A stretch of 64,000 bases of DNA from the NCBI GenBank assembly GCA_963920525.1, contig OY986437.1:112646715-112710714 (forward strand), in the 5' to 3' direction. The notes beneath the pieces are model-generated. The model did not search any database, was not told the DNA's origin, and worked only from the letters and a program-made list of their open reading frames with translations. Of the stretch, positions 1 to 45,880 are shown one piece after another. The stretch's first letter is position 1, and every line of letters begins with the position of its first letter. Source of the DNA: Dichetophora obliterata (taxonomy: Eukaryota > Arthropoda > Insecta > Diptera > Sciomyzidae). The position numbers and the translations under genes are program-made.

Positions 1-34
1 AAGCTACATAATAATTTTAGGACGAGAAACAATT

Positions 35-310
35 ATGGACCAAAGCCAAATCAGGATTTTCAAAATTTCCAGAATTCTAACCCAGAAAGATTGCAAATGC
101 GTTTCACATCACAAAATTTTAAGCCACAAAATTTTCAAAATTTTAGCCAAAACCCACAACCAAACAATGTATCTTTTAGACAGAACACACATTTTGGGGA
201 AAACCAACAACCAAACAATGTTCCTTTTAGACAGAACACACATTTTGAGAAAAACTAACAACCAAACAAGGTTCCTTTTTGACAAGACGCACAACAACCA
301 ATGGAGGTAG
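35..310 (+). pseudogene. gag: Gag C-terminal tail with 54-bp tandem repeats
   Basis: Asn/Gln/Phe-rich coding sequence typical of the tail of 17.6/297-type Gag proteins. In the gag frame, an 18-codon unit containing FRQNTHF recurs about three times between roughly 157 and 300, with a few base differences per unit. There is no zinc knuckle, as in most errantivirus Gags, which use basic, Asn-rich tails instead. The open frame reading NNQTMFLLDRTHIL over the same bases is the same repeat in another frame. Start lies outside the window. Confidence 0.6.
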
Positions 311-371
311 ATAATATCCAGGTAGTAGAAAATTTTCGAGTAATGCCTCGGACACCAAATTACCGATAATG

Positions 372-871
372 ATTTTTACAATCGAATCTTATCCAGTTCG
401 ATGTCTTATTGATACTAGTGCATCAGTAACTTTAGGTAGCATAAGTTTTTTTAATAATAAGTAAGTTTCTAATGGGTAAATGCATTAGAAAATCCACTTT
501 TATTAAGAACAATAACAGACCAGGAGAAAGTGAATTATGAAACAATTGTTTTGGTTCCGGAAGAAATGAAATTGTTAGGAGAAACAATGGCAGTAAAACT
601 TGTAAATTTTAAAAATAAATATTTTGATATGATAATTGGTAGCAACTTTTTACGTGCAGTCTGTGTTGTGATTGATTTTTTTAGAAATCAAATAGAGATC
701 AATGGTATAATTATTCCTATCGAAAAGGAGAAAAATTGTAGTTTAAGTTACGACGAAATTCATATACTTGAAAAAAGTGAAACAAATAATTGTACCCTTG
801 ATAATTTAGTGGCTAAGGAAGCAAATGAACAGGAAAAAGAAAGATTGGGACAGTTCTTAAAAAAAATATAA
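372..871 (+). pseudogene. pro: Aspartic protease and linker of E1
   Basis: The retroviral-type protease motif is present as LIDTSAS (codons at about 405-425). The third active-site residue, normally Gly in D-T-G, reads Ser, so the enzyme is probably inactive. Downstream, MIIGSNFL (about 630-653) matches the second conserved protease block (I-I/L-G-x-x-x-L). It is followed by the hydrophilic linker to RT. A frame change separates the two blocks. Confidence 0.6.
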
Positions 872-913
872 AAATTCTTTTTACCAGGATGGCCAATTTT
901 TATCTGCCACAAA

Positions 914-2215
914 TTGAGTAAGCATAGAATTATTACTAACTCGAATAAACCGATTTATTCAAAAATTTATCGTTACCCCCAAATGAATGAAAGGGAAATT
1001 GAAAAACAGATTAACGAAATGTTATCACAAAATATCATTAGACATAGTAAATCACCATATAATTCTCCGCTATGGATTGTTAAAAAAAATGGATAATTCT
1101 GGAAAAAGAAATTGGAGGATCGTCATCGACCATCGACGTTTAAATGAAGTAACTGTCGATAATAATTTCCCCATTCCAAATATGGAATCCCTTTTTGATA
1201 AATTGGGGAGAGCCCAATACTTTACAACTTTGGATTTAGCCAAAGGATTTCACCAAATTTTGGTTGACGAACACGATATAGAGAAAACGGCATTCTCTTC
1301 GCCCATGGCCACTTCGAGTTCATTCGAATGCCCTTTGGATTAAAAAATGCCCCTTCGACATTTCAACGTATGATGAATTATGTGTCGAGAGATTGTATAA
1401 ACAAAATATGTATAATTTATATGGATGACATTTTAGTCTTCTCCACTTCATTGGAGAAACATTTCGTTAATTTAAATAAAATATTTGACAAACTAAATGA
1501 AGTGAATTTAAAGATACAATAAGATAAATGTAAATTTTTATCTAAGGAAACAGAATTCTTAGGTCACTTAGTAACATCAGAAGGTATTAAACCTAACCCT
1601 TTAAAAATTGAAATAATAAAAAAATTTAATTTACCAAAAACTGTAAAAGATATTAAATCTTTTTTAGGCGTAACGGGCTTCTATAGAAGATTTATAAAAA
1701 ACTATTCTACCATAGCTAGTCCAATGAATAAGTATCTGAAGAAAGACGTGCAAATAAATCTTCTCGATGAAAAGTATAGAAACGCTTTTAATAAACTTAA
1801 AAACATTTTAAGTAACCCTCCTATCTTGACATATCCAAATTTTGAAAAAAAATTTGTACTAACGACAGATGCTAGCAATGAAGCGCTAGGTGCTGTATTG
1901 AGTCAGGATGGAAGACCAATAAGTTTTGCTAGCAGGACTCTCAACAACCATGAAAGAAATTATCATACTTTAGAAAAAGAATTACTTGGTATAGTTTAAG
2001 CTGTAAAATATTTTAGGCCCCATGTTTACGGCAGAAAATTTTTAATTCAAACTGATCCCAAGCCTTTCAAGTGGTTATATTCTTTGAAGGAACCCAATTC
2101 TAGGATAATACGATGGAAATTGATGCTAGGAGAATATGAGTTTGATGTAGAGTATATTCAAGGCAAAGACAACAAGGTTGCCGACTTTTTGAGTCGATTA
2201 AATGTTAATAATCAA
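914..2215 (+). pseudogene. pol: Reverse transcriptase and RNase H of E1
   Basis: RT motifs appear in order: [50 protein letters not shown] and IIYMDDILVFS (active-site YMDD intact), then the connection [14 protein letters not shown] and RNase H ([15 protein letters not shown], then RNase H/chromodomain-proximal VADFLSRL). At least three stops and two frame shifts break it. In RNase H the usual TDHxPL reads TDPKPF, a substitution in the conserved block. It is clearly a 17.6/297-type errantivirus Pol, closest in this window to E3. Confidence 0.85.
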
Positions 2216-3060
2216 ATACCTCAGAAAGATAAGGACGAAGCTATTACAACAATTGAGGAAAATTTTAATTTAAAGCACATTTTTGAACTAGATGACGATG
2301 ATGTCGATACCATTCATGGTTCAGAAGAAAATCTAAACGAGCAAGTAGTAACAAGTGATGGAATTGTTAATAAATATAGAAAGCAAATTAGAATTGTTAA
2401 AAGCAAAACCAAAGAACAAGAAGTTCTTTTCAGAAAGCATAAAATCATATACGTACAGGAATCAGAATTAAACAGAGACCATTATTTAAATGACTTATTT
2501 CGTCAGTTCATAAAAAAAGGAACAATTGGCATTTTTTCCAAATTAGAAAACGATATATATAACATAATTCATCGAAAATTAATAAGCTTGTTTAGAAATG
2601 ATAGGAATTTGATATTTATAAAATGTAATAAATTGGCAATTGATATCGAAAACGAAGAAGAACTATTCTAAATAATTGAGAACGTACATAAAAAACCAAT
2701 CATAGAGAATTAATTGAGAATTTTGAAGAAATAAGATATGAATACTTTCATCCCAAATTAATTAAACACATCAATAAAAACATTATTGCTTGCGAAATTT
2801 GTTCGGAAAATAAATATGATAGAAAACCCAGTAAAAAACTTTTCAATCTCACTGATACACCTGATAAACCCAATCAAATTGTACATATTGATATTTTTGA
2901 CAATTACACAGAACTCGTTTTTTAACGTCTATAGATAAATTCACAAAATTAGCTATTATTCATAAAATCGAAGATAAGAATATGAGCACTATCAAGACTA
3001 AAATAGCGGAAAGAATATCGTTTTTAGGAAAGCCTGAACTCCTTGTTATGGATAATGAAG
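2216..3060 (+). pseudogene. pol: Integrase N-terminal part of E1
   Basis: A variable RNase H-integrase linker leads to an integrase zinc-finger remnant (ACEICSENK, about 2,785-2,815) and the start of the catalytic core (SIDKFTKLAIIHKI, then LVMDNE holding the second catalytic Asp). The core stops at about 3,060, before the Glu-containing block. Env sequence begins within a few bases, marking a deletion of roughly half of integrase. Confidence 0.7.
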
Positions 3061-3063
3061 AAC

Positions 3064-3715
3064 TCTAAAATTATGAGACAAAGACGTGCATTGATAAATG
3101 TTGGCGGAAAATTAATAAAATGGATTTTTGGAAATCTTGATCAGGAAGATAGTGAACACATTTAGGAACATTTTAAAGTAATAGATATTAATCACATAAT
3201 ATCATATCAAATATAAATAAGCAAATAAAAATCAATAATGATTTGCATAATTATCTTTTTGAAATAAGATCCATTATTAAAGAAAACATGAATCTTAATA
3301 TGTCAGTGAATATAGAAAAACTTTTTGTAAAAACTGAATACAATAGTTTGTTATTATATATAAATCTAATTAAGGATGCAATTGAAAAAATCCAAGAAAA
3401 CATATTAATGTCAAGTTATAACATAATGGCAAGATTAAATTTAAGCACAGAAGAAATTCAATACTATAAAATAGATATTGAACTATAAACTAAGGTTTAT
3501 TAAAAGTGCGATTGGGAAAATAAAGGAGAATTATATTATTTTTGTTATTTTCATTCCAAATTTTCATGAAGAATTATTTAAAACATATTTTGTATTACCC
3601 ATACCAAATGTATACAATTTTGAATTAAATATTAACATAACTAAAATTGTAATAAAAGACAATAGTGTCTTTTTGGCAAATAATATTTTAAGTTCCAAAT
3701 TAGAAAAACCATCGT
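3064..3715 (+). pseudogene. env: Env fragment of E1
   Basis: The stretch RRALINVGGKLIKWIFGNL followed by acidic residues matches the region just after the furin-type cleavage site of errantivirus Env (baculovirus F-like fusion protein). Further env-like coding continues in two overlapping frames to about 3,715, where piggyBac-like coding starts. The transmembrane C-terminus is missing. Stops and frame breaks make it non-functional. Confidence 0.6.
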
Positions 3716-4843
3716 ACGCGCGCATTTCGTCAACAAACCGACAAAGCTGCTCCCATTCGCGACAAATGGAACTTCTTGAATATCAATCTTGCCAGTAATT
3801 TTGAACCATACGAAAGTGTAACCATCGATGAGCAACTATTTCCATACCGTGGGCGCACAAAGTTCACGCAATACATCCCATCAAAGCCCGCAAAGTATGG
3901 CATAAAAGTATGGTGGGCATGCGATGCGAAAACCAAACATTCGTTGCAAGGAAAACTGTACACTGGTAAAGAACAACGAGAGACAAACCAAGGCGAAAAT
4001 GTGCTCATGAGTTTGGCTAATCGATACGCCAACAGCGGCAGAACTATTATTGCTGATAACTTCTTTACAACATTAGACGCAGCTAAACGTCTTTCGCCGA
4101 TTGGACTAGCATACGTTGGCACCATTAGATCCAACAAAAGGTGTCTTCCCAAAGAAGTGAAAAAAGACAGCAAACGGCCAGTGCTTTCATCTGTGTTCGG
4201 TTTCTATGATAACCTTGTATCACTGTGCAGCTACGTTCCAAAGAAGAACAAAGCAGTAAATCTACTATCCACTACTCCGAGAAAGTTGAAGGCGTAGCAA
4301 AAAAACCGGAAGCTATATTATTTTACAATTCAACAAAGGTCGGCGTTGATACAATAGACCAAATGGTAACGCATTACTCCACAAAACGGCCAACCAGACG
4401 TTGGCCATTAGCATTTTTTTCATTTCATGGGATTAGCCGCTTACATCATATGCAATGAAAATACAGAAGGAACCAGAAAAGAGCAGCGACGAATGTTCTT
4501 GAACACGCTGAGTAAAGAATTGGTGCTTGCTAATACTGAAAATCGCATGAACAACAACCATATTTTTGGACAACATTCAACCCATTTGGCCATTGAATCT
4601 TTCTTTGGAAGGCCGTTGAGTATTCCCAGCAACATGCTGCCTAACCAACAAAGCTGCCCTAGTACACTGAATTCCAGAAAAGATTGCAGAATTTGTGCCA
4701 CGCAAGACGAAAATCTGCGCAGGAAGACACGGTTTACTGCATCAAATGCACTAATCCTGTGTGCCAGCAACATTCTAAAGTTGATTATACTTGTTTTTTA
4801 TGCATTCCACAAAATGAATAAAAATTTGTTTACATTTAGGTAG
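3716..4843 (+). pseudogene. piggyBac-like transposase, 5'-truncated
   Basis: Begins at the block preceding the first catalytic Asp (TDKAAPIRDKW). It then shows all three piggyBac catalytic aspartates: VTIDEQLFPYRGR, TIIADNFFTT and VGVDTIDQM. SKPAKYGIKVWW is a strong family signature. The C-terminal Cys-rich part is eroded (CRICATQDENLRRKTRF, with later Cys lost). The frame shifts at about 4,297, 4,440 and near the end. About the first 40 percent of a full transposase is absent and no terminal inverted repeats or TTAA sites were found. It abuts the E1 env relic. Confidence 0.85.
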
Positions 4844-5059
4844 CTACATATATCAACAAATAAAAAGAAAAGTCTAAAGACAAAAATAATAAACGAGCAT
4901 CTTAGAAATTCAAAATTACGGTACCCTTTTTGCCATACAAATGCATAAAAAGGTACAGGGTCTGGCCAGGCATATGTGTTTGTTCGAAGGTTTCAGAATA
5001 AGTGTTTGACGGGGGGTTAAGGATGGGTTTTTCCATGTGCCGGTGGCAAAGGCTAGCAG
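4844..5059. other. Unassigned spacer
   Basis: AT-rich sequence between the piggyBac relic and the RT scrap. No coding frame, repeat or structure recognised. Confidence 0.4.
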
Positions 5060-5275
5060 AAAGTATACATCTTTTGTCTCATAGTGGACAGTATCAGTTC
5101 AAGAAGGTACCTTTTGGGCTCTGTAATTCTCCAAATGCTTTCCAACGCTATGTCAATTCAATTTTTAGAGATTTTATGAGGGAGGGTATTGCTTTAAGGC
5201 ATATCGATGATATCATAGTACCGGCTAATAATGATGAGGAAGCAGTGCCTGAAAATTTTAAATTGAGCGTAATTT
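5060..5275 (+). pseudogene. Ty3/gypsy reverse-transcriptase scrap
   Basis: A short piece of RT: GQYQFKKVPFGLCNSPNAFQ followed by an IDDI active-site block (HIDD in place of Y-x-D-D). The wording differs from the errantiviruses here, so it comes from another Ty3/gypsy lineage. Sequence upstream and downstream is not recognisable and no LTRs were found. The first active-site residue is His, so it is inactive. Confidence 0.7.
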
Positions 5276-5488
5276 TAAAATTAGTTACAAAAAAGTTTTT
5301 CACGACGTTTTTAAATTCAATTTTATATACATAAGAAATATTGCAAATAAAAAACGAAAACAAAACAAAATAGGTAAGGAAATTAATCAATTGCGTTATT
5401 TAATATATAAAAAGGAAAACTTAATATAGTTAAATAAAAGCATAAAAAGCATTTTTTACCCTTAAATGAAACACAAAATTAAGGGTAT

Positions 5489-9169: not shown

Positions 9170-10537
9170 ATAACATACAAAATCAGGAACAAATAAACAA
9201 TAATGACATAACAGGACTACTTCGCACCACACATCTAAATTCTGAAGAAAGAAAGACAATCTCCAACCGATACTTAGTACCTAACATCAAAGAAATACTA
9301 GAGCAGTAATGGAATACACTAGACCTTGCTAGTGGTTTCCACCAAATAGAGTTACACCCCAACGACATTCCTAAATCCGCTTTTACCGAAGAAGAAGAGC
9401 ATTATGAATACCTTCGAATGCCCTTCGGACTGAAAAATGCTCCATCCACATTTCAAAGAGTGATGGACAATGTCCTTAGAGAATTACAGGGAAAATTGCG
9501 TTTAGTTTATTTGGACGATATTATTGTGTTCTCCACATCTCTACAAGAACACATAGAAAATTAAGTATAAGTCTTCGATAGACTTCGGGCATCAAATTTG
9601 AAAATACAAATGGACAAGTCTGAATTCCTACACAAGGAAATAGCTTTTTTGGGTCACATCGTGACTACATACGGTGTCAAACCAAACCAAGATAAAATTA
9701 AGGCAATCCGAGAATTTCCAATTCCTAGGACTCAAAAGGAGATAAAATCATATATTGGGTTTTAAGGTTAATCCAGGAAATTTGTAAGAGATTAAGCAAA
9801 ATTATTAAGACCTATGTCCGAATGTTTAGAAAAAAACAAAAAAGTTAAACTCACAGAAAGATATATTCAATCTTTTGAAACATGCAAAAACATACTTATG
9901 ATCGGATATCTGATTTTGCAAAGCCCTTTAATTTAACTACTGATGCGAGCAATTTCGCCATTGGCGTTGTATTATCGCAGGGACCAATAGGTAATGATAA
10001 GCCAATTAATTACGCCAGTTGAACTTTAACTTAAACCGAAGAAAATTAAAACCGAAAAAGAGCTATAAGCCATTGTATTGGCTAGGAAATTCTTTCGTCC
10101 TTATTTACTTTGTCGTCAATTTAAAACTATAACAAGTTACAGACCTCTTAATTGGCTTATTAGTATGAAAGAGCCTAACTCAAAATTAGTTCGTTGGAGA
10201 CTTAAGCTGGAAGAATTTGATTACACTATTATTTACAAAAAAGGGAAATTAAATACGAACGCTGACGCGTTAAGTCGAATTAAATTGGATAACCCCTATA
10301 CAAAAGACCGTGAAGAAGAAAACGATACCACTACAACAGAACAAGAAACAGACGGAACAGTACATTCTGTTGAAGAAAATCTAGATGACGGAATATACAT
10401 TTCGGAAAAAACCTACTAAACGAATTTAACCTATAGCTTCATTCAATAAAATCAAATACAAACTCAAGTGTCTTAGAAGTACCGTTCAAAAATAAACAAA
10501 GAAGAGCAATCCAAAGCACGGAATTTACAGAAGAACT
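9170..10537 (+). pseudogene. pol: RT and RNase H of E2, RT fingers deleted
   Basis: After a short pre-RT stretch (about 9,180-9,300) the sequence jumps to [14 protein letters not shown], so the first part of RT (the SPYNSP/IDYRKLN region) is missing. Then [26 protein letters not shown] (intact Y-L-D-D), the connection domain, RNase H (TTDASNFAIG in a shifted frame), LKLEEFDYTI and ADALSRI follow. Many stops occur. It breaks off in the RNase H-integrase linker at 10,537, where an LTR fragment starts, and its integrase, env and 3' LTR are not in the window. Confidence 0.8.
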
Positions 10538-10635
10538 TGCGGCGGAATCTTCAGTTCCGTCTCGTCACTGGGTTTTGCTCTTCAAGCGTTAAGCGATACT
10601 TTCTCGCAACATTAAACCTAGATATCCACTCTTTG
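10538..10635 (+). repeat. 5' LTR fragment of the CsRn1/Kabuki-like element
   Basis: The first 98 bp (TGCGGCGGAAT...CCACTCTTTG) match, with about a dozen differences, the start of the LTR at 13,783 (TGTGGCGGAAC...). At 10,636 the text jumps straight into pol, so the rest of the 5' LTR, gag and most of protease were deleted. Confidence 0.75.
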
Positions 10636-12760
10636 TCACACCTGATGGCTTCAAGGTCAGGTGTGACGCACCACATCATGACCTCCCGACAAACTGAAGG
10701 CGGCATAGGCAGAGTTCCAATTTTTAATAGAAAATAGTATCTGCAAGCCTTCAGATACAACTGTACGAGTCCGGTTCACATGGTGAAGAAGAAAAACGGG
10801 TCGTGGCGACTATGCGGGAATTACAGGGCACTCAAAGAGAAAACCTTGCCCGACCGATACCCGAATCCATACATACAGGATTTCACGCATATCCTGCATA
10901 ACAAGACCATTTTTTGACGATCGATTCGCAACGAGCTTACCACCAAATGCCGGTCGAGACGAAGAACGTTCCGAAAACGCCTTTCGGACTGTATCAATTC
11001 AAGTTTATGACGTTTGGGCTTCGAAACGCTGCTCAAACCTTTCAGAGACACATCAACAAGGTATTGCTTTCTGAACCAGACTATGCATTTGTTTACATAG
11101 ATGCTATTTGTATAGCTTCACGCGACAAGAAGCAGCACCCACCTTCGAAGAGTTTTTCAGCTCCTGCGTGAGAACGGACTCGCAATAAATGTCGCTAAAT
11201 GTGAGCTTGGTATAACTGAAATAAAGTTTCTCGGGCACACTATCAACAAAAACGGCATCAAGCCAGCGACGGACAAAGTTAAGGCTATAGCAGAATACAG
11301 CCGTCCCGCGACAGCTCGCGACCTCAAACGTTTTCTGGGCATGGTAAACTTTTATAGACGATTTATGCAATTTGGCAGCAACCCAAGCGATCTTGCAGAG
11401 CACGATCGTGGGTAATAAAAAGAACGATCCAACCCCTTTTAAATGGTCAACGCCTACAATAACCGCTTTCGAAAGTTGTAAGACACAGCTGGCAAACGCA
11501 ACGCTGTTGTTTCATCTAGCACCTAACGCCGAATTATCCCTCGCTGTAGACGCTTCAGATTTTGCGGTAGGTGCTACAACCTTTTGGGTTTTATTCAAAA
11601 AATTTGACTGAAGCACAGAAGAAATATAGTACATACGACAGGGAGCTGCTTGCAATAATTTCAAGCGATGAAATATTTTAAGCATATGGTAAAAGGCCGA
11701 GCTTTCGTCATTTTAACCGATCATAAGCCGATCACGTTTGCTTTTAAACAGAACCAAGATAAAGCATCGCCGCGACAAGCGAGACGGTTGGATTTTATCG
11801 GTCAGTTCTTATAACAGACATACGGCATTTGCCCGGCAGGGAAAACGAAGTAGCAGATGCATTGCCCTGTTTGTGTCAGATCACAAAAGCCATACATCGA
11901 TTTCAAAAAGCTGGCTCTAGAACAGAAAAAAGACGTCCAATTTGAGCGACTGATTTACGCAGCTATTCCATCGTCCTTAGTTTTAAAGGAAATTAAGTTA
12001 TCAAAGACAATCGCTATTGCCTAACCATCATCGATCGTAAACGCGTTGGCCAGAAGCTATACCAATGCCGGACATGACGGCGGAGACCGTCGCACGAAAC
12101 CTACTATCAGGCTGGATTGCTTAGTTTGGGGAAGCTCTTCTAATTTCGACCGATCTAGGGCGTCAATTTGAGTCTGATTTATCTTACCATCCCCAATATA
12201 ACGGAATGATAGAGAGGTGGCACCGAACATTAAAAGCGGCAATCATGTGCAATGACAGTGACGACTGTTGCTGAATGCTACCACTAATCCTTCTGGGACT
12301 CCGTTCATCGATTTAAAAAGATATTGCGGCATCGCCAGCTGAGTTTGTTTAGGGTACCCCCTTAAAATAGCCAGGTGAGTTCCTGTGTCCGTCTTTACAG
12401 AAACCTAACGAGACGGATTTCATAAAGGAGTTGAGACCGATGATGTGTAAGAACGCACCTACGCAGGCAAGTCATCATGACAATCCTCGAATTTTCGTGC
12501 AGAGTGGCCTGAGGGATTGCACGCATGTTTTTGTTCGAGTCAATAAAGTACAACGCCTTCTACAGCCTCGCTACGATGGTCCATTTAAGGTGCTAGAGAG
12601 TGCAGACAAGTCTTTTTCCATCGACATGAGGGGGAAACAACAAAAATTTAAATTGACAAACTAAAAGCAGCATTCTTACCGAAGTTCGACGACGAGTCGA
12701 CGCATCCTTACACTCAGCAGTCCACAGATACTGCCGTGGCAACTTATTCCAACACTACAA
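10636..12760 (+). pseudogene. pol: CsRn1/Kabuki-like Ty3/gypsy pol relic
   Basis: Starts with GVTHHIMTS, the hallmark pre-RT block of CsRn1-type elements. It continues with VKKKNGSWRLCGNYRALKEK, LPDRYPNPYIQDF, an RT core in shifted frames (YQFKFMTFGLRNAAQTFQRH), FLGMVNFYRRFM and ILTDHKPITFAF. Integrase remains include YHPQYNGMIERWHR with the catalytic Glu, and the typical C-terminus RYDGPFKVLESADKSFSI. Frame shifts and stops are frequent. The long pol plus its own LTR at 13,783 identify the lineage. It lies inside errantivirus E2. Confidence 0.75.
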
Positions 12761-12954
12761 AGGGCAACCGGGCAAAATCAAAGCACACGACAACCTTGCC
12801 AGAAAACGGTGCGAAACGTTCCAGCGCACCGTTGAACACAGCGGGACAAAGCCTTATTAAGCCTCAATCGTATCGAGATCAATCGAGACGCACTCCTAAC
12901 ACTCGCAGTTCCTGAGTTCAACATCACAAACGTGGCACGCTCTAAGCCACAAAA

Positions 12955-13711
12955 TACCAAAAAGACCGTGGCTTTTTACGGGATCAAGGTATGGTGGATA
13001 TGCGATGCTAAAAATTCATATCTTCTTCATGGCCAAATATATACTGGCAAACAAGACAGTGGTCGCGAAATCGGTGTAGGCGAGAGAGTAGTCAGAGATT
13101 TGGTTGGGCCATACCACAATAGCGGACGTAATATCACCATGGATAATTTTTTTACGACGCTGCCACTGGCAAAGCAGCTGATATCCGTCAAACTTAGCAT
13201 TGTTGGAACACTGCGGCGAAACAAAGCCTATATACCAACAGAAATGAAAGACGATAAGATTTGGACCGTTGGGACAAGCAAATTTGATTTCCACGAGAAG
13301 GTGACTATGGTTTCATACAAACAGAGGAAAACAAATTCCGTAATATTGTTGTCGACTCTGCATGATGATGCAACTGTAGAAGAAAACGGCAAACCATAAA
13401 TCATCAATTTTTATAACAAAACGAAAGGTGGCGTGGATGTTATGGACCAGACGCTTCGGGAGTATACCACACAGAGACACACAAAAAGGTGGCCTTTGTC
13501 GTTTTTGTACAATATGCTCGATGTTAGTGCTTTCGCGGCATACATTATATTTTATGATAATAACAGAACTGTTCCATATCAAACAACACGGAGAAAACGC
13601 TTTTTGCATAAACTTGCTGGAGATGTGTGTGCGCCAATAATAAAAAAAAGAATAGCTAATCGCCAAGTAACGCGCCATTTTTCCACCAAATCAGGAATTG
13701 AGGCTTTTTGA
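12955..13711 (+). pseudogene. Second piggyBac-like transposase relic
   Basis: YGIKVWWICDAKN marks the region just after the first catalytic Asp, which is itself missing. TMDNFFTT and GGVDVMDQ carry the second and third Asp. A TAA at about 13,397 replaces the expected Glu codon before the IINFYNKTKGGVD block. The C-terminal Cys-rich domain is absent. It is diverged from the copy at 3.7-4.8 kb, so it is a separate lineage. It sits in the 3' untranslated part of the CsRn1-like element, just before its LTR. Confidence 0.85.
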
Positions 13712-14756: not shown

Positions 14757-14963
14757 TGTGGCAGTATTGTAGTTTAGTACTATTGTAGTGTAAGATTTCA
14801 TGTGTTGGAATGCAACCGTGGTAAAATGCTTGTGAAGCTGCGTCATTTCCAACACATGAACTGAAAAGAGAATGAGCTGTGCTCAGTCTTCTTTCGGCTT
14901 TGATTGCGAACGCATTGAAAATAAATAAAGCATAATTAAAAACTGAAAACTTGGCCTACTAAA
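14757..14963 (+). repeat. 5' LTR (207 bp) of the mdg3-type element
   Basis: Begins TGTGGCAG and ends CTACTAAA by the target-duplication criterion, so it lacks the usual CA end. It contains a perfect 14-bp inverted repeat (TTCATGTGTTGGAA at 14,797-14,810 and its complement at 14,847-14,860) with a 36-nt loop. An AATAAATAAAG polyadenylation-like signal lies near the end. Very short for an LTR. Confidence 0.93.
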
Positions 14964-31890: not shown

Positions 31891-33016
31891 AATTACAGAA
31901 CCTCAATACAATCAAGAGAATTTAACAGATCTCTGCAAAAGATACCTCAACCCTTCGGTCATAAACTGTATTCAAGCATCTGAAAGAGTTATGGGATTAT
32001 TGCAGGAAGTTTATGCACAACATTTTAACAATTACAAAATAAGATTTACGCAAATTGTCGTAGAGGACATAATTAACGAACAACGACAGGAAGACATTAT
32101 TATCGACGCACATAACCGAGCACATAGAAACGCAAAAAAAAAAATAAACTACAAATCTTACAAAAATACTATTATCCAAGTATTAACAGCAAAATACAGA
32201 GAATAACAAAAAAATGCGTAACGTGTAAACAGAATAAATGCGAAAGACACCCAATCAACCAAAATTAAACGAAACACCCATGCCTAATCACCCCAGTCAC
32301 ACGGTACATATAGATATTTACTCGACGGACAAGAAATTAGTTTTGACTAGCCTAGACAAGTTTACAAAATATGCACAAACGAAAATAAATCCCGGAAAAT
32401 CAATAGAAGAAATAAGGAGACCCCTTAGAGACTTATTATTTTTTTACGGCGTACCGAAATCAGTAATAATAGATAACGAAAAATCCCTAAATTCAGCAAC
32501 AATAATGTTCATGATGAAAGACGAGCTAGGAATCAATGTTTATGTAACTCCCCCATATAAAAGCGAAATCAATTGACAGGTCGAACAGTTTCATTCAACC
32601 TTGTCCGAAATTATGAGATGCCTCAAAAGCGACGGAACAAATAGAAACTTTGAAGAACTACTCGAAAGATCAACAAACGAGTACAACCACAGCATTCACT
32701 CCACAACAGGCAGGAAACCGGTAGATCTCTTCTTTGGCAGAACCGTGGATTTTAGCCCACATGACTATGAAAAAACACGACAAGACAATATAAAAAACTT
32801 ACCGAAAAACAACAAACTGACCTACGACACCATAACATAAATAGACACACAATAAAAGAATACTTGCCAGGACAAGTAATATATGTAAAACAAAACAAGA
32901 GAATAGGAACGAAATTATCAGCAAAATTTAAAGAAGAAATAGTGAAAGAAAATAGGCAAACCACAGTAGTAACAGAATCAGGGAAAATAGTACATAAGAG
33001 TAACATACGGAACTAA
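31891..33016 (+). pseudogene. pol: Integrase of E4
   Basis: A zinc-finger remnant (H-x-x-x-H in AHNRAHRNAKKK, CVTCKQNK-like at about 32,218) is followed by the core with VHIDIYSTDKK and VIIDNEKS (first two Asp) and QVEQFHST (catalytic Glu). A stop (TGA at 32,574) sits immediately before that last block, in place of Gly. Another stop follows at 32,838. It is recognisable throughout but cannot be made as one protein. Confidence 0.8.
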
Positions 33017-33039
33017 GACAGCTAATAAAATAACTTTTT

Positions 33040-34655
33040 TGTACAGAGTACTACTGTCCATGTCCAGTGCAGAGGTACAAATACTGGACTTTTTGAATTC
33101 TCAACTTATTGAACTAAATATTGGACAAGCAAAAGTACAAAACGGCAACTTCAAATTAATTCATGTAATTGACCTGGAACCGTACTGAAATTTTTTGGAA
33201 ATTACAGAACTCACAGTTAAACAAACTATAAGCACACAAAACACAATATTTCCTTTCATATCGCTCCAACTCTCCCAGATACGCTCCCTCCTCAATAGAT
33301 TGCAACCTAAATTAAAACCAGAACGTTCACTCAACTTTATTGGAAGCGCATGGAAATGGATCGCAGGTATCCAGACCATGACGACTTCAAAATAGTACAA
33401 AACAAAATGAATAATCTCTTAAAAAATAGTAATAAACAAATTGTTATTAATAAAGTTTCAATTGAAAGAATAAATGAAATTTCTAATGTAACGAACGAAA
33501 TATTAAAAGAATTTAAATCTAATCCAATCATAAAAAATGAATACGTAACCGATATAAAATATAAAATAGATATTATAAAAGAAGAAATTCTTAATATTGA
33601 CTATGCAATACAATGGGCCAAGTCAGGTATTATAAATACCTACATTTTGTCAAACGCAGAAATAAATGCTGCAAAATCAATTTTTGATACAGAAGAAATG
33701 CCCTATAGTAATATAATCGAAGCATTAGAATTTAGTGAAGTAAAAATAGCATCTTATCATACTGCTCTAATTTATATTATAAGTTTACCCATTACTAAAA
33801 AAGAATCATGAGAGAAAATACTTCTAAAACCTGTTAAAAAAGGGAAAAAAAACGAATGAAATACCGTTTGAAAAAATTTTAAAATGTAATAAAGAAATAC
33901 TCGGAATTAAAACTAATTGTAAAACTTTCAGCGAATTGTCCATTTGCAAAAGCAAAAATATCGTAGATATAAGCAAAACTAAATGTATACCAAAATTACT
34001 TAAGAGTTTACCACCTAACTGCACTGTAACAAACAATCAGCACCTTCCGACCGTCGAAGAGATAACGGATGGCACAATTCTGCTAAACCAATACAATGGC
34101 TCGTTGAAAATAGTCGACAACTTACTGAATTTAACCGGATCTTTTATCCTGCAATATAAAAATACTACAATAGAAATTAACAACACAATCTACACCTCCA
34201 ACGAAGTAATACAAGTCAAACCACTTCCTGCAATAGTTCAACCATCTGCACAAAATACGGAACTCACCGAAATACTATCACTCCAAATGCTAAAAGAACT
34301 CCACAGCAATAGCACAGAATACATCAAATCGTTTGAATCAATCAATGGAATCCATTTATGGACCAACGGAAGCTTCGCAATCATAATAGTTACACTAATA
34401 ACTACAATAATACTAAGATTTCTGCTGGCAAAAAAATCACAGGCAATAAAAGTCATAACGAAAATAGAGAAAGAAACTACTAACACCATCAAAGAACCTC
34501 CACAAGGAAAAGATACCTCTATTAACTTAGCAGAAAATCCAATAACACCAGAAGGTCCCAGGCCAAAAACTCCGAAATTTTCACATTCTACAATAGAAGG
34601 AATAAATCATATTTTTAATAAAGAAACACCATCCAGCGAGGACGCTTGCATTTAA
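33040..34655 (+). pseudogene. env: Env of E4 (fusion-protein type)
   Basis: Errantivirus Env related to baculovirus F proteins. LNFIGSAWKWIAG marks the region after the cleavage site. A one-base shift near 33,362 moves the frame to PDHDDFKIVQNKMNNLL. There is a stop at 33,809, then the C-terminal half with a transmembrane segment (FAIIIVTLITTIILRFLLA, about 34,375-34,433) and a cytoplasmic tail ending in TAA 34,653. It is non-functional as it stands. Confidence 0.8.
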
Positions 34656-34664
34656 AAAGGGAGG
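34654..34664 (+). promoter_or_regulatory. Polypurine tract of E4
   Basis: AAAAAGGGAGG directly before the 3' LTR, the usual plus-strand primer. Confidence 0.7.
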
Positions 34665-35042
34665 AGTTAAGGTAACAAATATTTAAACTAAGGAAATATG
34701 CTGACACTATGTCTACGAGTGCACGCGCATTCGATGCATTCGATGCATTCGTCACACCGTGAGAATGCCAACGTTATCTACTCCAATAACCACTACAATA
34801 AAACACAACAACAACAGAGTCCACGCGCATCCGCTAAATTCGTCAAACCGTGAGAACGCCAACGTCAGCTACTTCAACAAACACTACAATCAACAGCAAC
34901 AGCGGCAGCTCAGGTTTAGGTGTAATAATAAAGCTATAGAAAATGTTAAATTAGTTTTAAGTTCAATATCAAATAATAAAGTCGCTCATAGCGAAGAAAA
35001 AATATTTTTTTTTTATTAACTTAAACTCGCAATAAATTAACT
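34665..35042 (+). repeat. 3' LTR of E4 (378 bp)
   Basis: Same ends and order as the 5' LTR, with a shorter CAG/CAA run (18 bp fewer), a T run longer by three, and two substitutions. Confidence 0.93.
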
Positions 35043-36660: not shown

Positions 36661-36739
36661 CATGCAGGATGTGGAGAATTTTTTAGACTAAAGGAGCATC
36701 TCCCATATATAAAGAAAAATAATAGAATATCAGGAGATA

Positions 36740-37705
36740 TCAGGAGATACTCTCAAAATTCTTATAGAAACAGGTACAAACAAAAACTATTGTAAAAGAA
36801 ATGCATTTCACAATCCCTCTGAGATAGTAACACATAAGTGCGTAAGTTCAATCCATGGGAGAACAATAATAAAGAGGTATTATTTAGTTAATATTTTTAG
36901 AGTTAAAACTATATTTTACGAACTACCGGAGTTAAAACATTACGATGCTAGAATAGGAATAGAACTATTGAAAAAAATTAATTGAAATCTCAATTTAAAA
37001 GAAACTCAGCTAGAATATGAAAAAAATAAGATTAAAAAGTTAAACTATAACGAATTTGAGGAAATAGACAATCTCAACATAGATGAGACTATTTCTTAAA
37101 AAATAAAAAATAAATTACGTCAAATAATTAAAACATATTCTATAGCTTTTTCAAACCAAGAGCCTACCTTACCTTTTAATACAAGAGTAAAAGCAACAAT
37201 TCGTACTAAAACAAATGAACCAATATGGTCAAAAGGATATTCTTTAACTTTTAAAGGATAATATAATACGACAAACTCGTTCGCCTTACAATTCCCCCGT
37301 GTGGGTAGTCCTAAAAAAGGTTTTAATGAAGACGGTAGCAAGAAACAAAAATAAGTCATAGACAAAAGTTAATCAAAATACAATTTTTGATCGTTACCCG
37401 ATTCTTAATGTCAGTGTAATACTAGCAAACTTTGAAAAATCAAAATATTTTACTACACTTGACCTGGAAAGCGGTTTTCACCAATCCTTATCAAAGAGGA
37501 AGATACGGTAATAACTGCTTTCTTCGTTAATAACGGAAAGTATGAATTTAATAGAGTGCCATTTGGGCTTAAAAATGCGCCCTCAATATTTCAACGAGCA
37601 GTTGATGATATATTAAGAGATTTAATATGTATAATATGTTATATTTATATAGACGACGTAATTATATATTCTGAAACAGAACAAGAACATCTTGATTGTT
37701 ATTAA
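36740..37705 (+). pseudogene. pol: Protease and RT fragments of E5
   Basis: ILIETGTNKNYC (about 36,757) is a protease site whose first Asp has become Glu. GIELLKKIN follows as the second block. The RT part begins late (YYT*PGKRF region) and shows [20 protein letters not shown] and IYIDDVIIYSE with Y-I-D-D. It ends at about 37,705, where env-like sequence begins, so the rest of RT, RNase H and integrase are deleted. Confidence 0.75.
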
Positions 37706-39326: not shown

Positions 39327-39590
39327 TAAAAGAAAGGTGGCAACCACAACTTGAAAAAAACGAATAGCAACGAAGGCAACAGCAGTCAGTCGGTCGGAAC
39401 ACGCCTAACGAAAAGCTGCGTATTAAACTTCTTCATAACGTGATATTCAAGTTTCTGTCGATTCAAATAGATATTTATATATAATAATAATTTTTCCGTT
39501 TGTTAATGAATTTAACTTTTGTTGATAACATCAACTTCATTATCATTAAAATAAATAACTTTAAAATATTAAACTTTTTGTAACCTTTTA
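39327..39590 (+). repeat. 5' LTR (264 bp)
   Basis: TAAAAGAAAGG...CCTTTTA. Holds an extra 23-bp AT-rich piece at about 39,469 that is absent from the 3' LTR. Confidence 0.92.
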
Positions 39591-39592
39591 AC

Positions 39593-39605
39593 TCAGAAGT
39601 GGGAT
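39593..39605 (+). other. Primer-binding site, tRNA-Leu type
   Basis: TCAGAAGTGGGAT, identical to that of the element at 14,757 and again a few bases away from the LTR and without TGG. Confidence 0.65.
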
Positions 39606-40163
39606 GCAATCCATCCAAACGTATTTGTGCTCGTGCCGGTAAAAATATATGTTTAATTAAAAGTATATTAAACAATGCAGATGTGGAAACTTGCATAAAA
39701 ACGGCCATAAGTGGTAAATGTTAGTGCGAAAACGTGAAATTTTTGTGTGAAAAAAACGTTTTTCTCGGAATTTCAAAAAGTGAACGAAGCGTCGTGGAGA
39801 AATCGAACGAAAACGAAGCCTGGTGCAAAAACAAAAAAAATTCCCTGTGGTATAAACGAATTTGAACGAAACAAACGAAAAAAATAAAACAAGCAACAAC
39901 AGCGGCGTAACAGATAACAAGGAGAAAGTTAAGCTAAAGAAAGCTCAACAAAGTTAGTGCAAAACAAAATACGCGAATAAAAGACATAACGAGTAATAAG
40001 CGGTAATGAAAATAAACGAGTGCATGCAGAAAGCAAAATAACGAAAACAGCAAAAGAAGACAGTAGAAAAGTGTCAACGACGTGACAAAAACAAAACAAA
40101 TACGTAAATAAAATAAGTTTCAGCGTAAATAACAAAAAAAAAAAAAAAATAATTAGCAGCAAC

Positions 40164-43100
40164 ATGGTTAAGCTAGCTGCGATGAATATTCAGCAGCTAA
40201 AGGACTTGCTACGCGAATATGAATTACCAACAACAGGTGGTAAAAGTGAGTTAGTGCAACGCTTGAGTGATCATTTAGGTACAGATGAGGCTGAAGTGCT
40301 TCCTTCAGTACAAGATCAAATAAAAGAATTGAAGAACATGATGGCTCAGCTTGTATGCGCTATTTCGAGCGTACAGAACGCGTCAGAAAATTTAGAACCA
40401 CCTCGTGTTAGCACTCCAGCCACAGCTACTCATCATGAACTTTCAAACGTTTCGGTGGCGCGTAATAAGTATTCGGTTAAAGAAATTTCAGAAACGATTC
40501 CTGAATTTGATCCGACGAATGAACTTTCACTGACGGCGGAACAGTTTGTCGAGCGCGTAAATAGTGCGATAAGTGCTTATGAGTGGGACGAGAAATGCAC
40601 ACTGCTAGCTGTGTATAGTCGAATGAAAGGTGTTGCGCAATTATGGTTAGATGGGTCTCAGAGCTTATTGACCAATTGGAGAGACTTTGCGATTGCTTTA
40701 GTGGCTGAATTTGGCGTAAATCTTGATGAAGCGGACGTTAGTTTTAAAATGGCCAACGCCACGCGTAAACAAGGGGAAAAAGTGGTAGACTACTGTTTCC
40801 GTATGGTTGCTTTGGGGAAACGATATGGTCTAAGTGAGGCGGCGGTAATAAAGTACACAAGAGAAGGCCTTAAATATCGTGAACTGCAGGCAGCGATTGC
40901 AGTTTTAAAATTCAGTACCATGAAAAATATGCGCGAGACTCTCGATGAATACTTAAAAAATTTGCCAACCGCGGTGCGTAATGTAAATTTTGAAAAGAAT
41001 TTAAAAACAAACGAAACTAAGTATCCTCAAAGTGCAATCAAAGTGGAAAAAAACATAATGTGCTATAACTGCTCCGAAAAAGGGCACATTTCGACCAACT
41101 GTCCTAAGCCTCAGCGGCGTCGTCGGTGTGTAGATTGCCAAAAAGTTCATCCGCGAGGTGAACCCGAAAACTGTGGCAAAAGTGCGTCTGTCAGGAAAAT
41201 TAATTGCGAGAAAAAGGAGAAAAAGAAGGATTTGTTCGAAAAAATTGTGCGTGTAAACGGTAAAGAGCTTGTTGCGTATATAGACACCGGGAGTGATTGT
41301 CATATGGTACGTCAGTCCATAAGAGAAGGCATGGATTGTCAAGCCGAAAAGTTTATAATGCAAATTAAAGGCATCTGCGGCGGCACACGAATCACTAACG
41401 AAAAAATAAATGTGAATCTGCAAGTTGACGAGGTGATGATGCAAATTGATGTTCTAGTAGTTGAAGATGATTTACTACCAGCCGATATCCTGCTTGGTCA
41501 TGAACTCTTCTCAAGCGAAGACGTAAGCGCAACAGTAACCAATGGTGAGATAACTTTTTCTTCTAATCTTAAATATATAAATGTTAATAAAGTCAGTAAC
41601 GACAAGTCAAAACGTCTTATAACTATTGACGATATCAATTGCGATGTGCATGACGAAAACGTACGTTTTAGTTTGCTACAGCTAATTAATGACAAGCGTG
41701 ATGTATTTGCAGACGGCTTGGGTGACATCGGAAAGACAGATTTGATTGAAATGAAAATCGAGGTAAATTGTAAGGAACCGGTCGCCCAACGACCTTACCG
41801 TGTACCGGAACCGAAAAAAGCCCTAGTGACCGACAAGATTAATGAACTTTTAGAGAACGATATAATAACTGAATCTGATTACGCGAGCCCCATTCTATTA
41901 GTAAAGAAAAAGAATGGCCAAGATCGTCTCTGTGTAGATTTTAGGCACTTGAATCGGCACCTCAACAAGGAAATTTATCCAATGCCAAATATTGAGGAAC
42001 GGTTGCAAGAGGCGGCTCAGTATACGTATTTTACGACGCTTGACTTAAACAGCGGTTACTACCAAGTTCCTATCGAACCAGCCAGCAGGAAATTCACAGC
42101 TTTCGTGACGACGACTGGACTTTATGAATTCAAGCGGATGCCATTCGGGCTCAAGAATGCGCCAGCTGTTTTCCAGCGATTAATGGCAAAAATACAAGAA
42201 AGAACACGAAAGGACGATATGTTGCACTATATGGACGACATCTTAATAGGTAGTCAAACAATCTCCGAAATGTTGGAAAAACTACAGCGAATTTTGACGG
42301 TTCTGTACGACGCCAAATTAACGTTGAACCTGCAAAAATGCGAATTTATGAAACGAACTGTCCAATTTTTAGGTCATGAACTTTCACCTCAAGGGATTAG
42401 TCCAGGGTCAATCAAAACGAAAGCCGTGAGTAATTTTAAAACACCAACATGTCTGACTGAAGTTCGTCAATTTTTGGGCTTAACGCGCTATTTTCGGAAA
42501 TTCGTCCCTGGTTACGCATTAACGTCTGAACCGTTGAGAAAACTTTTGCGGAAAGACCAGCCTTTCAAATGGACATCAGTACAAGATGCAGCGATGACTG
42601 AGTTGAAGAATGCTCTCGTTAAAAAGCCGGTTATGACGTCATACCGCGTCGACGCTGAACACGAACTACACACAGATGCGAGCTCAGTAGGACTAGCAGG
42701 CGTGCTCATGCAGCAGGACGAAGACCAATGGAAGCCAGTCGCGTATTACAGTCGATCGACAAGCAGCAATGAGAAGAACTACCACAGTTACGAACTGGAA
42801 ACACTTGCAGTGGTTGAGTCTTTGGATAGGTTTAAATATTACATTGCTGGTAAACAAATTAAAATTATCACGGATTGCAGCGCAATCAAAACAACCATGC
42901 AGAAAAAGGAATTAATCCCTAGAATTGCCAGGTGGTGGCTTCGAGTGCAAGATTTCGACGTCACCATTGAACACCGTTCTGGTCAACGAATGCCTCATGT
43001 GGATGCACTCAGTCGCAATCCAAGCGAAATCTCTGGTGAAATGGACACAGCTTCGTTGCGCATCGACAAGGTAGATCTAGTGGAAGCAGATTGGATGTTC

Positions 43101-44321
43101 AGTATGCAACTTCAAGATGCAAAAATCAATCAGATTATAGCAAAATTACGTTCAAAAGATAAGCTAACGGAGGAAGAATACATTGAAGACCGAGGTCGCT
43201 TGTATCGCAAGAATAAGGGTAGTGAAGCTAAGCAGTGGGTCGTACCAAAGGCATTGCGATGGCGAATTGTTTTCGACTGCCACAATAAATCTGGTCACCT
43301 TAGCGTTGACAAAACGATAGAAAAGGTAAAACGATATTTTTGGTTTCCGCGTATGCGAAATTATATAAAATCTTTCATACAATCCTGCATTGAATGCGCG
43401 TATAACAAAATTCCTGGCGGTAAAAAAGAAGGCGAGTACCACTACGACGACATTGAACCAATTCCTTTTAAGACAATACATCTTGATCATTTAGGCCCGT
43501 TTCCAAAAAGTAGGCAGCGTAACGAGCATATACTCGTGCTTGTTGACGCATTTACAAAGTTTACAATCGTCCGTGCCGTTAAAAGCACAGCAACAAAACA
43601 TGTTCTTGCTATTTTAGAAGAAGTCACTAGCTATTTTGGTATCCCAACCCGAATGGTGACTGACCGGGGCACCGCATTCACGTCCAAAGAGTTTCAACTT
43701 TATTGTAAAAACCACGACATAAAGCATATTAAAAATGCTGTAAGGACACCTCGTGCAAACGCGCATGCAGAGCGAACGATTCGAACGATTTTATCGATGA
43801 TTCTTCCAATGACCACCGAAGATAAGCGCTGGGATGACCATTTACGAAATATTCAATGGACAATTAACAGCATGAAAAACAAAACAACATTACAAACACC
43901 ACAACAACTTTTATATAGTTTTCAACCACGAGATATACTGCAAAACAAACTTATTCTAGCGTTGCAAACAAACGACGAGTGGCAACCAGATGATCTTCAA
44001 CGAATTCGAGACGAAGCAGCCAAACGTGTCAACATTGAACGATCTAAAGCCAAACAGAGATTCGATAAAACGCATGCGACACCAACAGTCTACAAAGAAG
44101 GTGATTTGGTTTTAGCTGAGAACGAACCAGCCAGTCCTGGCACTTCACGTAAACTTGAACCGCGTTACAAGGGTCCATTTTTAGTAACAAAATCGTTGGG
44201 ACGAGATCGGTATGTAATCGAGGACTTGCCGGGTTCACTTAGGAAGCAGCGGCATTATTCATCTGTATATTCTTCGGACAAACTAAAGCCGACTAAAAGA
44301 AAGGTGGCAACCACAACTTGA
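40164..44321 (+). CDS. gag-pol: Gag-Pol polyprotein, 1,385 codons, intact
   Basis: Uninterrupted ORF starting at ATG after an A-rich leader. Domains: a SAP-like motif (about residues 6-40, MNIQQLKDLLREYELPTTGG), a helical stretch, capsid (about 115-270), a zinc knuckle C300-C313 (CCHC) with a second, altered Cys/His cluster after it, and protease D374-T-G-S. RT with Y689-M-D-D692, RNase H and integrase with an HHCC finger and D1108-D1167-E1203 (DD35E) follow, then an RYKGPFLV C-terminal block. The last eight codons and the stop lie inside the 3' LTR. Gag and Pol are fused without a frameshift, as in the 15,004 ORF, but the two proteins are far from identical. Confidence 0.95.
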   Translation: MVKLAAMNIQQLKDLLREYELPTTGGKSELVQRLSDHLGTDEAEVLPSVQDQIKELKNMMAQLVCAISSVQNASENLEPPRVSTPATATHHELSNVSVARNKYSVKEISETIPEFDPTNELSLTAEQFVERVNSAISAYEWDEKCTLLAVYSRMKGVAQLWLDGSQSLLTNWRDFAIALVAEFGVNLDEADVSFKMANATRKQGEKVVDYCFRMVALGKRYGLSEAAVIKYTREGLKYRELQAAIAVLKFSTMKNMRETLDEYLKNLPTAVRNVNFEKNLKTNETKYPQSAIKVEKNIMCYNCSEKGHISTNCPKPQRRRRCVDCQKVHPRGEPENCGKSASVRKINCEKKEKKKDLFEKIVRVNGKELVAYIDTGSDCHMVRQSIREGMDCQAEKFIMQIKGICGGTRITNEKINVNLQVDEVMMQIDVLVVEDDLLPADILLGHELFSSEDVSATVTNGEITFSSNLKYINVNKVSNDKSKRLITIDDINCDVHDENVRFSLLQLINDKRDVFADGLGDIGKTDLIEMKIEVNCKEPVAQRPYRVPEPKKALVTDKINELLENDIITESDYASPILLVKKKNGQDRLCVDFRHLNRHLNKEIYPMPNIEERLQEAAQYTYFTTLDLNSGYYQVPIEPASRKFTAFVTTTGLYEFKRMPFGLKNAPAVFQRLMAKIQERTRKDDMLHYMDDILIGSQTISEMLEKLQRILTVLYDAKLTLNLQKCEFMKRTVQFLGHELSPQGISPGSIKTKAVSNFKTPTCLTEVRQFLGLTRYFRKFVPGYALTSEPLRKLLRKDQPFKWTSVQDAAMTELKNALVKKPVMTSYRVDAEHELHTDASSVGLAGVLMQQDEDQWKPVAYYSRSTSSNEKNYHSYELETLAVVESLDRFKYYIAGKQIKIITDCSAIKTTMQKKELIPRIARWWLRVQDFDVTIEHRSGQRMPHVDALSRNPSEISGEMDTASLRIDKVDLVEADWMFSMQLQDAKINQIIAKLRSKDKLTEEEYIEDRGRLYRKNKGSEAKQWVVPKALRWRIVFDCHNKSGHLSVDKTIEKVKRYFWFPRMRNYIKSFIQSCIECAYNKIPGGKKEGEYHYDDIEPIPFKTIHLDHLGPFPKSRQRNEHILVLVDAFTKFTIVRAVKSTATKHVLAILEEVTSYFGIPTRMVTDRGTAFTSKEFQLYCKNHDIKHIKNAVRTPRANAHAERTIRTILSMILPMTTEDKRWDDHLRNIQWTINSMKNKTTLQTPQQLLYSFQPRDILQNKLILALQTNDEWQPDDLQRIRDEAAKRVNIERSKAKQRFDKTHATPTVYKEGDLVLAENEPASPGTSRKLEPRYKGPFLVTKSLGRDRYVIEDLPGSLRKQRHYSSVYSSDKLKPTKRKVATTT

Positions 44322-44534
44322 AAAAAACGAATAGCAACGAAGGCAACAGCAGTCAGTCGGTCGGAACACGCCTAACGAAAAGCTGCGTATTAAACTTCTT
44401 CATAACGTGATATTCAAGTTTCTGTCGATTCAAATTTTTCCGTTTGTTAATGAATTTAACTTTTGTTGATAACATCAACTTCATTATCATTAAAATAAAT
44501 ATCTTTAAAATATTAAACTTTTTGTAATCTTTTA
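44294..44534 (+). repeat. 3' LTR (241 bp)
   Basis: Begins inside the coding region. The purine run AAAAGAAAGG that would be expected as a polypurine tract just outside the LTR is instead at its very start. Ends AATCTTTTA before the second TGTG. Confidence 0.92.
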
Positions 44535-44538
44535 TGTG

Positions 44539-45880
44539 GTTTAAGTGTAAACCCGAGAAAACAGATCTTATTCTTTTCACTAGGAAATATAAAACCCCCA
44601 ACTTAGAACCTCCACGTCCGAACGGCACGAGGTTGCTCTTTAGCGACAGCACGAAATACCTAGGAGTTATTCTGGATAAGAAGCTTATCTGGAATGTTAA
44701 CATTAAGGAACGTGTTAAAAAGGCAAACATAGCACTATTCGGCTGTAAAAAAGCTATAGGTAAAAAATGGGGTTTCTCCCCCAAAATAGTACGCTGGATT
44801 TATACAGCAATTGTCTGCCCCATACTAATGTATGGCTCACTGGTATGGTGGAGGGCCTTTGATAAGGCAACCGCACTTCAGAAGTTTGCAAAGGTGCAAA
44901 GAAGCGCAGGTCTTTGTATTACGGGGGCACTGTCCTCAACACCAACTAGCGCCCTCAATGTCATGCTTCACCTTTCTCCTCTCGATATCTTTGCCAGGGA
45001 ATGTGTCAACACAGCATCCCTGAGACTTAGAGAATCTGGTAATTGGATGGGTAACAACTGCGGCCACACAATTATTCTGAACTCGTCTGCACCCGACAAA
45101 ACAGACTACTGTGTGCCGTGCTTAAATCTTGAAAATAACTATGCAGTTTTCATCCCTTCACGGCTAGACTGGGCAAACAAAATCCCCCTTAAAACCTCCG
45201 CCATAAAAATCTTCACAGATGGATCCAAACTTCGAGAAGGGGAGGTATCTACTCCCAGGATCTCGAAATCGAAGCGTCCTTTAGACTTCCTAACTATTGT
45301 AGTGTCTACCAAGCGGAAATGATGGCTATTCACGAAACCACTAGGATTCTAGGTCAAAAAGACCTTGAAGGAAAAAGTATTTCCATCTTTTCAGATAGCC
45401 AAGCTGCACTGAAAGCACTGAACTCAAATATTGACAACTTTAAAACTCTCACTGAGTGCCGCAAATCTCTTAACGAGATGGCAAGGCAACTCAGGATTCA
45501 CCTCATATGGGTACCCGGACACAGGGATATCGAGGGCAACAATTTGGCCGACGAATTGGCAAGGAAGGGTACGACCTCTAACACCCTCTTAAATGAGGAC
45601 TTTATTGGTATACCCATTTCCTCCTATATAATGTCCGGCTCTAGCTAAAAGGAGAATGGCAACTCTGGGCCTTCCCTTTTTAAATGGACTTGCCGAAGTC
45701 TCATGCCTGGAAATCAAGCATATCCTCAAATTCATTATCCGCTCGAACTGGTTTGAGGAGGAAAATCTCTATTAGGTTTTTAAAGAGATCATGTGGTATC
45801 ACAACGGGCCTGCACTGGCCTAAGTGTACGAGTCGTCTATCAGCTCAGCCACCATTACCTAACCTTATATTGAGTTGAAG
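44539..45880 (+). pseudogene. LOA/I-type LINE: RT end, RNase H and 3' end
   Basis: Continues the LINE interrupted at 39,327: EKTDLILFTR, KYLGVILDKKLIW, VCPILMYGSLVWW (thumb region), then an RNase H domain (IFTDGSK, SIFSDSQAALKAL, IWVPGHRDIEGNNLADELA) with Asp/Glu/Asp/His catalytic blocks visible. A frame change lies at about 45,235-45,320. The 3' end carries GTGGTATCACAACGGGCC and ends near CCTAACCTTA at about 45,870, without a long poly-A. The same tail recurs at 62,975. Confidence 0.8.

Follow-up and report, generated by a model that had tools for sequence, protein, structure and literature searches.

A one-strand retroelement array in the fly Dichetophora obliterata as a candidate flamenco-like piRNA cluster

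Why should nearly all retroelements in 246 kb of contiguous fly DNA lie in the same orientation? The question is raised by a locus at 112.2-112.7 Mb of the 266-Mb contig OY986437.1 (C3) of Dichetophora obliterata, in an assembly of 1.31 Gb and 76 contigs. The window, i.e. the whole stretch of 64,000 nucleotides from which the analysis started, covers positions 112,646,715-112,710,714 of this contig; coordinates are window coordinates and negative values lie to its left. The contiguous sequence examined comprises 200 kb of left flank, the window and 50 kb of right flank, and left of -200 kb ten samples, each 1.2-2 kb long, were taken from -226 to -901 kb. We suggest that the window is quite likely the right-hand, promoter-proximal end of a unistrand cluster for PIWI-interacting RNAs (piRNAs) of about 0.5 Mb that resembles flamenco (flam) of Drosophila. 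The orientation and content of the array are described first; the promoter, the transcript, the piRNAs, the tissue and the selection involved are what we infer from them.

Orientation of insertions and the right border

The array of transposable elements (TEs) was followed in contiguous sequence from -200 to 45.9 kb, with nearly all retroelements on the plus strand. Reverse transcriptase (RT) cores were searched for with RT pieces from the array region and with the motif-bearing ones among 60 fetched proteins. Counting all copies between -200 and 46 kb, 22 Ty3, 2 BEL and 6 long interspersed nuclear element (LINE) cores lie on the plus strand and one LINE core on the minus strand. Before further counting, three Ty3 cores that are 100% identical to others as part of a 17.4-kb tandem duplication (-191.0 to -157.4 kb, 99.4% identical) were dropped, as were two from a set of three near-identical (about 99%) LINE copies. 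The independent cores that remain number 25 on the plus strand (19 Ty3, 2 BEL and 4 LINE) and one, a LINE, on the minus strand (one-sided p = 4e-7). Ty3-type cores thus make up 19 of the 26, and Ty3 and BEL cores together are on the plus strand in 21 of 21 cases across the 246 kb. The bias is also evident left of the window alone (16 plus, 1 minus, p = 1.4e-4; Ty3 and BEL 12 of 12, p = 2.4e-4). All p values assume independent insertions and are uncorrected for the number of windows scanned initially. Chance was rejected as the source of the bias on the p value reached after duplicates were dropped, and inflation by the tandem duplication was rejected for the same counting procedure.

These counts also bear on whether the locus is a germline dual-strand cluster or a pericentromeric TE nest whose bias arose by chance or by local expansion. 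The tandem duplication and the triplicated LINE copies do represent local expansion, and a position at 112 of 266 Mb makes a nearby centromere possible. This explanation is opposed by the low p value without duplicates, by the bias being common to several unrelated element types and by the reduced strand bias reported for dual-strand clusters, and we consider it highly unlikely.

Other counts point in the same direction. A tblastn library built from the window's open reading frames (ORFs) plus 40 of the 120 proteins fetched, which contained no mariner and not every LINE, placed 55 of 55 blocks left of 45.9 kb on the plus strand, and a wider library placed 54 blocks on the plus and three on the minus strand, the latter being one mariner matched twice and one LINE. 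Among 133 plus-strand ORFs of at least 125 aa (tandem duplicates included, six ORFs crossing piece borders left out), Pfam identified 25 RVT_1, 22 RT_RNaseH, 14 rve, 11 Gypsy Env (PF07253) and 4 Baculo_F domains. In a scan that does not depend on these libraries, a TE domain was identified in two of 104 minus-strand ORFs of at least 70 aa, one with a LINE RT and the other with a mariner transposase, after 210 ORFs lying at least half opposite plus-strand ORFs and three crossing piece borders had been left out. Counts of ORFs of at least 150 aa are 94 plus and 13 minus in the left 200 kb, with most of the 13 opposite plus-strand ORFs, and 4 plus and 6 minus in the right 50 kb. AT skew can be computed without annotation; its mean over the contiguous array is 0.147, with positive values in 47 of 49 bins of 5 kb.

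The array stops near 45.9 kb. In the right flank AT skew is positive in 9 of 14 bins with a mean of 0.000 (standard deviation 0.034), and the next 68 kb (to 114 kb) hold a mixture of eight plus and five minus blocks, one of the latter matched twice, including LINEs of both orientations; no Ty3 RT was found in this flank to 114 kb. To the left, plus-strand TE matches were found in six of the ten samples, at about -226, -251, -301, -351, -401 and -451 kb, the match near -401 kb being BEL-like. None of the ten gave a minus-strand TE match, and those at -276, -501, -601 and -901 kb gave no TE match. The array is thus perhaps about 0.5 Mb long, the part from -200 to about -450 kb being known from samples.

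A sequence-only reading of the window had claimed that every recognisable retroelement and both piggyBac relics in its first 45.9 kb are on the plus strand, that this orientation is non-random, and that it should be checked in the flanks. All recognised TE coding blocks in 1-45.9 kb, i.e. nine of nine Ty3-type RT cores, the envelope gene (Env), the LINE RNase H and two piggyBac relics, are indeed on that strand, and a Pfam domain was found in 0 of 25 scanned minus-strand ORFs there, those opposite plus-strand ORFs having been left out. The count of independent RT cores bears out the non-random orientation, which continues through the 200 kb to the left and in the samples as far as about -450 kb except for two insertions and gives way to mixed DNA on the right. 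Its names for the elements (five errantiviruses, two mdg3-type) were not reproduced one by one; at 21855..25576 no Env was found and the errantivirus label is that reading's own.

As a control, the orientation of endogenous retroviruses (ERVs) elsewhere in the genome was determined. Among the copies listed, 118 after merging, 64 are on the plus and 54 on the minus strand. Neighbouring listed ERVs have the same or the opposite orientation in 3 and 3 cases within 100 kb, 10 and 4 within 300 kb, 11 and 7 within 500 kb, and 15 and 9 within 1 Mb. Neighbours may thus tend mildly to share an orientation, though not to the point of a single orientation throughout. The control also informs a model in which integration itself is directional, with replication or transcription steering the integrase and no selection taking place. 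Such a model would accommodate the eight array elements with paired long terminal repeats (LTRs; K 0.001-0.011), all eight of which are on the plus strand. Ty3, BEL, LINE and piggyBac elements, however, insert by different enzymes and nevertheless share the bias, and neither the near-even orientation of the listed ERVs elsewhere nor the 11 same to 7 opposite neighbours within 500 kb suggests a general steering of integration. Directional integration is, in our view, scarcely credible as the explanation.

A proposed leftward transcript and the fate of insertions

As the array gives way to mixed DNA near 46 kb, we suggest that the probable start of a long transcript lies there or further right, from where it would proceed leftward across the array. 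With the captured retroelements on the plus strand, this transcript would be antisense to them. New plus-strand insertions would be kept, since each would be a further source of antisense piRNAs without introducing a sense-strand polyadenylation signal, and insertions facing the minus strand would be purged by selection. A weak lean in the same direction is seen among the LINEs and DNA transposons of the array, with nine on the plus strand (four LINE RT cores, a LINE RNase H, two piggyBac relics and two DDE_3 ORFs) versus two on the minus strand (a LINE and a mariner). Weak as it is, this lean would speak for a filter that removes sense insertions from the precursor rather than for selection of antisense virus fragments as the sole cause.

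A filter of this type would also operate in a very long intron or a leftward long non-coding transcript in which sense insertions were purged as disruptive and from which no piRNAs were made. The lean of LINEs and DNA transposons is what a plain filter would give, and a gene relic on the minus strand has its end at 47.4 kb. This relic, which we take from a motif to be a TARBP1-like (SpoU methyltransferase) gene, is broken, and none of the 104 scanned minus-strand ORFs carries a host-like domain, although exons shorter than 70 aa and the ORFs opposite plus-strand ORFs fall outside that scan. Moreover, one-strand arrays of envelope-bearing elements have been described for flam-like loci. An intron or non-coding transcript lacking piRNAs is therefore unlikely. 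The sequence-only reading had proposed an eroded TARBP1-like gene ending at 47,407; a broken minus-strand relic is present there, and Pfam gave no match for two pieces of it. As to a possible intact TARBP1 elsewhere in the genome, one SpoU match was obtained (C6, 214.38 Mb), covering only the last third of the profile. As a conjecture, the array may have grown past the 3' end of this leftward gene.

Returning to the flam-like cluster, its architecture can be compared with published loci. The published search criteria for flam-like loci are richness in LTR elements, strong strand bias and a location outside centromeres and telomeres; flamlike1 of D. ficusphila measures about 560 kb, and flam clusters located by synteny are reported to span 227 to 1,085 kb. 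The array (i) is an LTR-rich region of at least 100 kb with 21 plus and no minus Ty3 and BEL cores, (ii) is dominated by envelope-bearing Gypsy-family elements, with Ty3 accounting for most RT cores and 11 PF07253 ORFs on the plus strand, duplicates included, and (iii) is a single locus of hundreds of kilobases, contiguous over 246 kb and followed in samples to about -451 kb. In content and size it fits published flam-like loci. Thus, the flam-like architecture put forward in the sequence-only reading stands in its LTR richness and strong strand bias, and the corresponding function is one that we would predict.

Several observations weigh against a flam-like cluster. The locus is known here from its DNA sequence. 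Beyond -200 kb the ten short stretches are all that was read, four of them lacking a TE match, and the library used on them was drawn largely from the array itself. The right flank is small and itself leans to the plus strand; as it also lacks Ty3 elements, it is mainly these that make the difference in orientation between array and flank. Two minus-strand insertions, a mariner near -136 kb and a LINE near -37 kb, lie inside the array. Some local likeness of ERV orientation may be usual, judging from the neighbours within 300 kb. The motif AATAAA occurs 254 times on the minus strand versus 684 times on the plus strand, yet composition predicts 237; depletion of minus-strand poly(A) signals, examined as a possible mark of a long transcript, was therefore rejected, and the motif provides no independent indication of one. 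For one Env family, intact and abundant elsewhere, the array parts compared gave no close DNA match (best 75% over 99 bp). Finally, the bias reaches beyond Gypsy elements, unlike in Drosophila.

Apparently envelope-bearing BEL/Pao elements and known clusters

In Drosophila the bias of flam-like loci is reported to be exclusive to Gypsy elements, and env is reported as not found in Pao elements (PMC10643416). This restriction, which is not a defining trait, does not hold here: BEL RT cores (2 of 2) and independent LINE cores (4 plus, 1 minus) share the orientation. At -114.3 to -110.8 kb on the plus strand, an RT with a Pao peptidase and an integrase with DUF5641 are followed directly by a Baculo_F ORF, and at -97.8 to -94.7 kb, also on the plus strand, an integrase zinc domain and DUF5641 are followed directly by a Baculo_F envelope ORF. 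From the order and spacing of the ORFs, each run is apparently one envelope-carrying BEL/Pao element. We tentatively propose, at somewhat less than even confidence, that one antisense trap holds two unrelated sorts of envelope carrier, Ty3 errantiviruses and BEL/Pao elements with an envelope of the baculovirus-F type (Baculo_F), and, more weakly, envelope-less elements. If so, capture would follow infectivity, i.e. the envelope, and orientation would be enforced by an intact long precursor and not, as the Drosophila loci suggest, by membership in the Gypsy family. The same-orientation, apparently envelope-bearing BEL/Pao elements raise the question of whether capture depends on Gypsy family, envelope or transcript integrity, and these three views predict different things.

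Like the array, Drosophila flamenco and flamlike1-5 span hundreds of kilobases with envelope-bearing Gypsy elements in one orientation (PMC10643416; FlaHMM, PMC11400887), and most of their insertions are opposite to the inferred transcription, as we propose here. The array differs from the Drosophila flam-like loci in containing plus-strand BEL/Pao elements with an adjoining Baculo_F-type envelope, and in that its piRNAs are predicted. Comparable somatic clusters are reported for Eristalis tenax and Bactrocera tryoni. These hoverfly and tephritid clusters are likewise from brachycerans other than Drosophila, mostly single-stranded and antisense to gypsy; they were found by small RNA sequencing, the D. 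obliterata array from its DNA. The somatic piRNA clusters of mosquitoes hold antisense BEL/pao elements, as the array does, yet the mosquito BEL envelopes are described as type III fusion glycoproteins (PMC13172572), whereas the Pfam match here is Baculo_F. In Drosophila, antisense retrovirus insertions in 3' untranslated regions can start piRNA production (PMC13226689). The array likewise starts immediately beyond the 3' end of a relic gene that reads leftward; unlike those insertions, it is large and the gene is dead, and the link is a conjecture. No report of the OY986437.1 locus was found in the literature searched, the search not having been made under the species name. Since comparable somatic clusters are known in other flies, the locus would be one more of its type and may show a variant trait: if the proposal is correct, a flamenco-like locus is added in another fly lineage, recognised from the DNA of a 1.3-Gb genome.

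Age of the insertions and features of the window

Self-comparison supplied the eight LTR-like pairs of the array, their elements being assigned to the plus strand by coding content, and a ninth pair at 59-61 kb outside it. Target repeats are clear for two elements of the window (Table 1) and for the -149.9 kb element (CTGT), the other pairs being less clear. LTR-end stretches of the errantivirus at 26291..35042 are 92-97% identical to six compared copies on C1, C4, C6 and C7, and the source families of the array have been active recently. The low K of the LTR pairs and the near-identical copies, together with degraded copies that are undated, indicate that capture is recent as well as old, and recent and degraded copies alike are on the plus strand.

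Table 1. Features of the window and their positions.
Feature	Position	Strand	Details
Right-hand end of one-strand TE array	1..45880	+	continues left of window
Ty3-type pol fragment	737..3035	+	RT core near 1424; RNase H
piggyBac-type transposase relic	3704..4294	+	PF13843
Ty3-type RT fragment	4983..5367	+	RT core near 5206
Ty3-type pol fragments	9196..11578	+	RT cores near 9514 and 11104, hence two copies
Second piggyBac-type transposase relic	12836..13396	+	PF13843
LTR element	14756..19895	+	open 1553-aa frame (SAP, zinc knuckle, RT, RNase H, integrase); RT core near 17605; LTR pair K about 0.010
Ty3-type copy	21855..25576	+	broken frames: gag, RT, RNase H, integrase zinc domain; RT core near 24004
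Errantivirus	26291..35042	+	LTRs; pol, RT core near 30889; Gypsy-type Env (PF07253) at 33.0-34.65 kb; several broken frames; TATA both sides
Ty3-type pol fragment	36725..37696	+	RT core near 37652
LTR element	39327..44534	+	open 1411-aa frame (SAP, zinc knuckle, protease, RT, RNase H, integrase); RT core near 42234; LTR K about 0.008; TGTG target repeat
LINE 3' part	44528..45645	+	RNase H (PF00075, 45.2-45.6 kb)
Right border	45880..47406		AT skew mean falls from +0.147 to about 0; orientation turns mixed
Eroded TARBP1-like (SpoU methyltransferase) relic, presumed	47407..47993	-	broken by stops and frame change
LINE outside array	52240..54214	-	
Shortened BEL/Pao element outside array	59247..61125	+	LTRs; BEL matches 59.5-60.8 kb

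Env genes elsewhere in the genome are, among the matches listed, often open frames (48 plus, 43 minus). One Env family has many listed copies of near-equal score on C1, C2, C3, C4 and C6, with an open frame mostly of 488 aa, which suggests a recent spread. At -149.9 to -141.0 kb, a 956-bp LTR pair with a single difference encloses a gag-like ORF with zinc knuckles and a 405-aa ORF of repeat units; RT was not found by tblastn in this element, which is probably very recent and internally shortened.

In the right flank, two mariner-like ORFs, one per strand, gave no Pfam match, and a minus-strand ORF with DUF4371 is presumably hAT-like. An AT-rich 18-bp tandem repeat occupies 49853-50194, and an inverted copy of it lies close by. 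Scanning the window for tRNA genes and Rfam families yielded a single result, a tRNA-Asp at 62.7 kb that is at the threshold in Rfam. The mitochondrial ND2 protein reaches 58-59% identity with its best listed relatives and none listed exceeds 59%; the 120 matches listed out of 7933 come mostly from schizophoran flies, headed by Sciomyzidae, with a few other Brachycera. Mitochondrial COX1 has many nuclear matches on C1-C4, C6 and C7, one of which, on C2, covers nearly the full profile.

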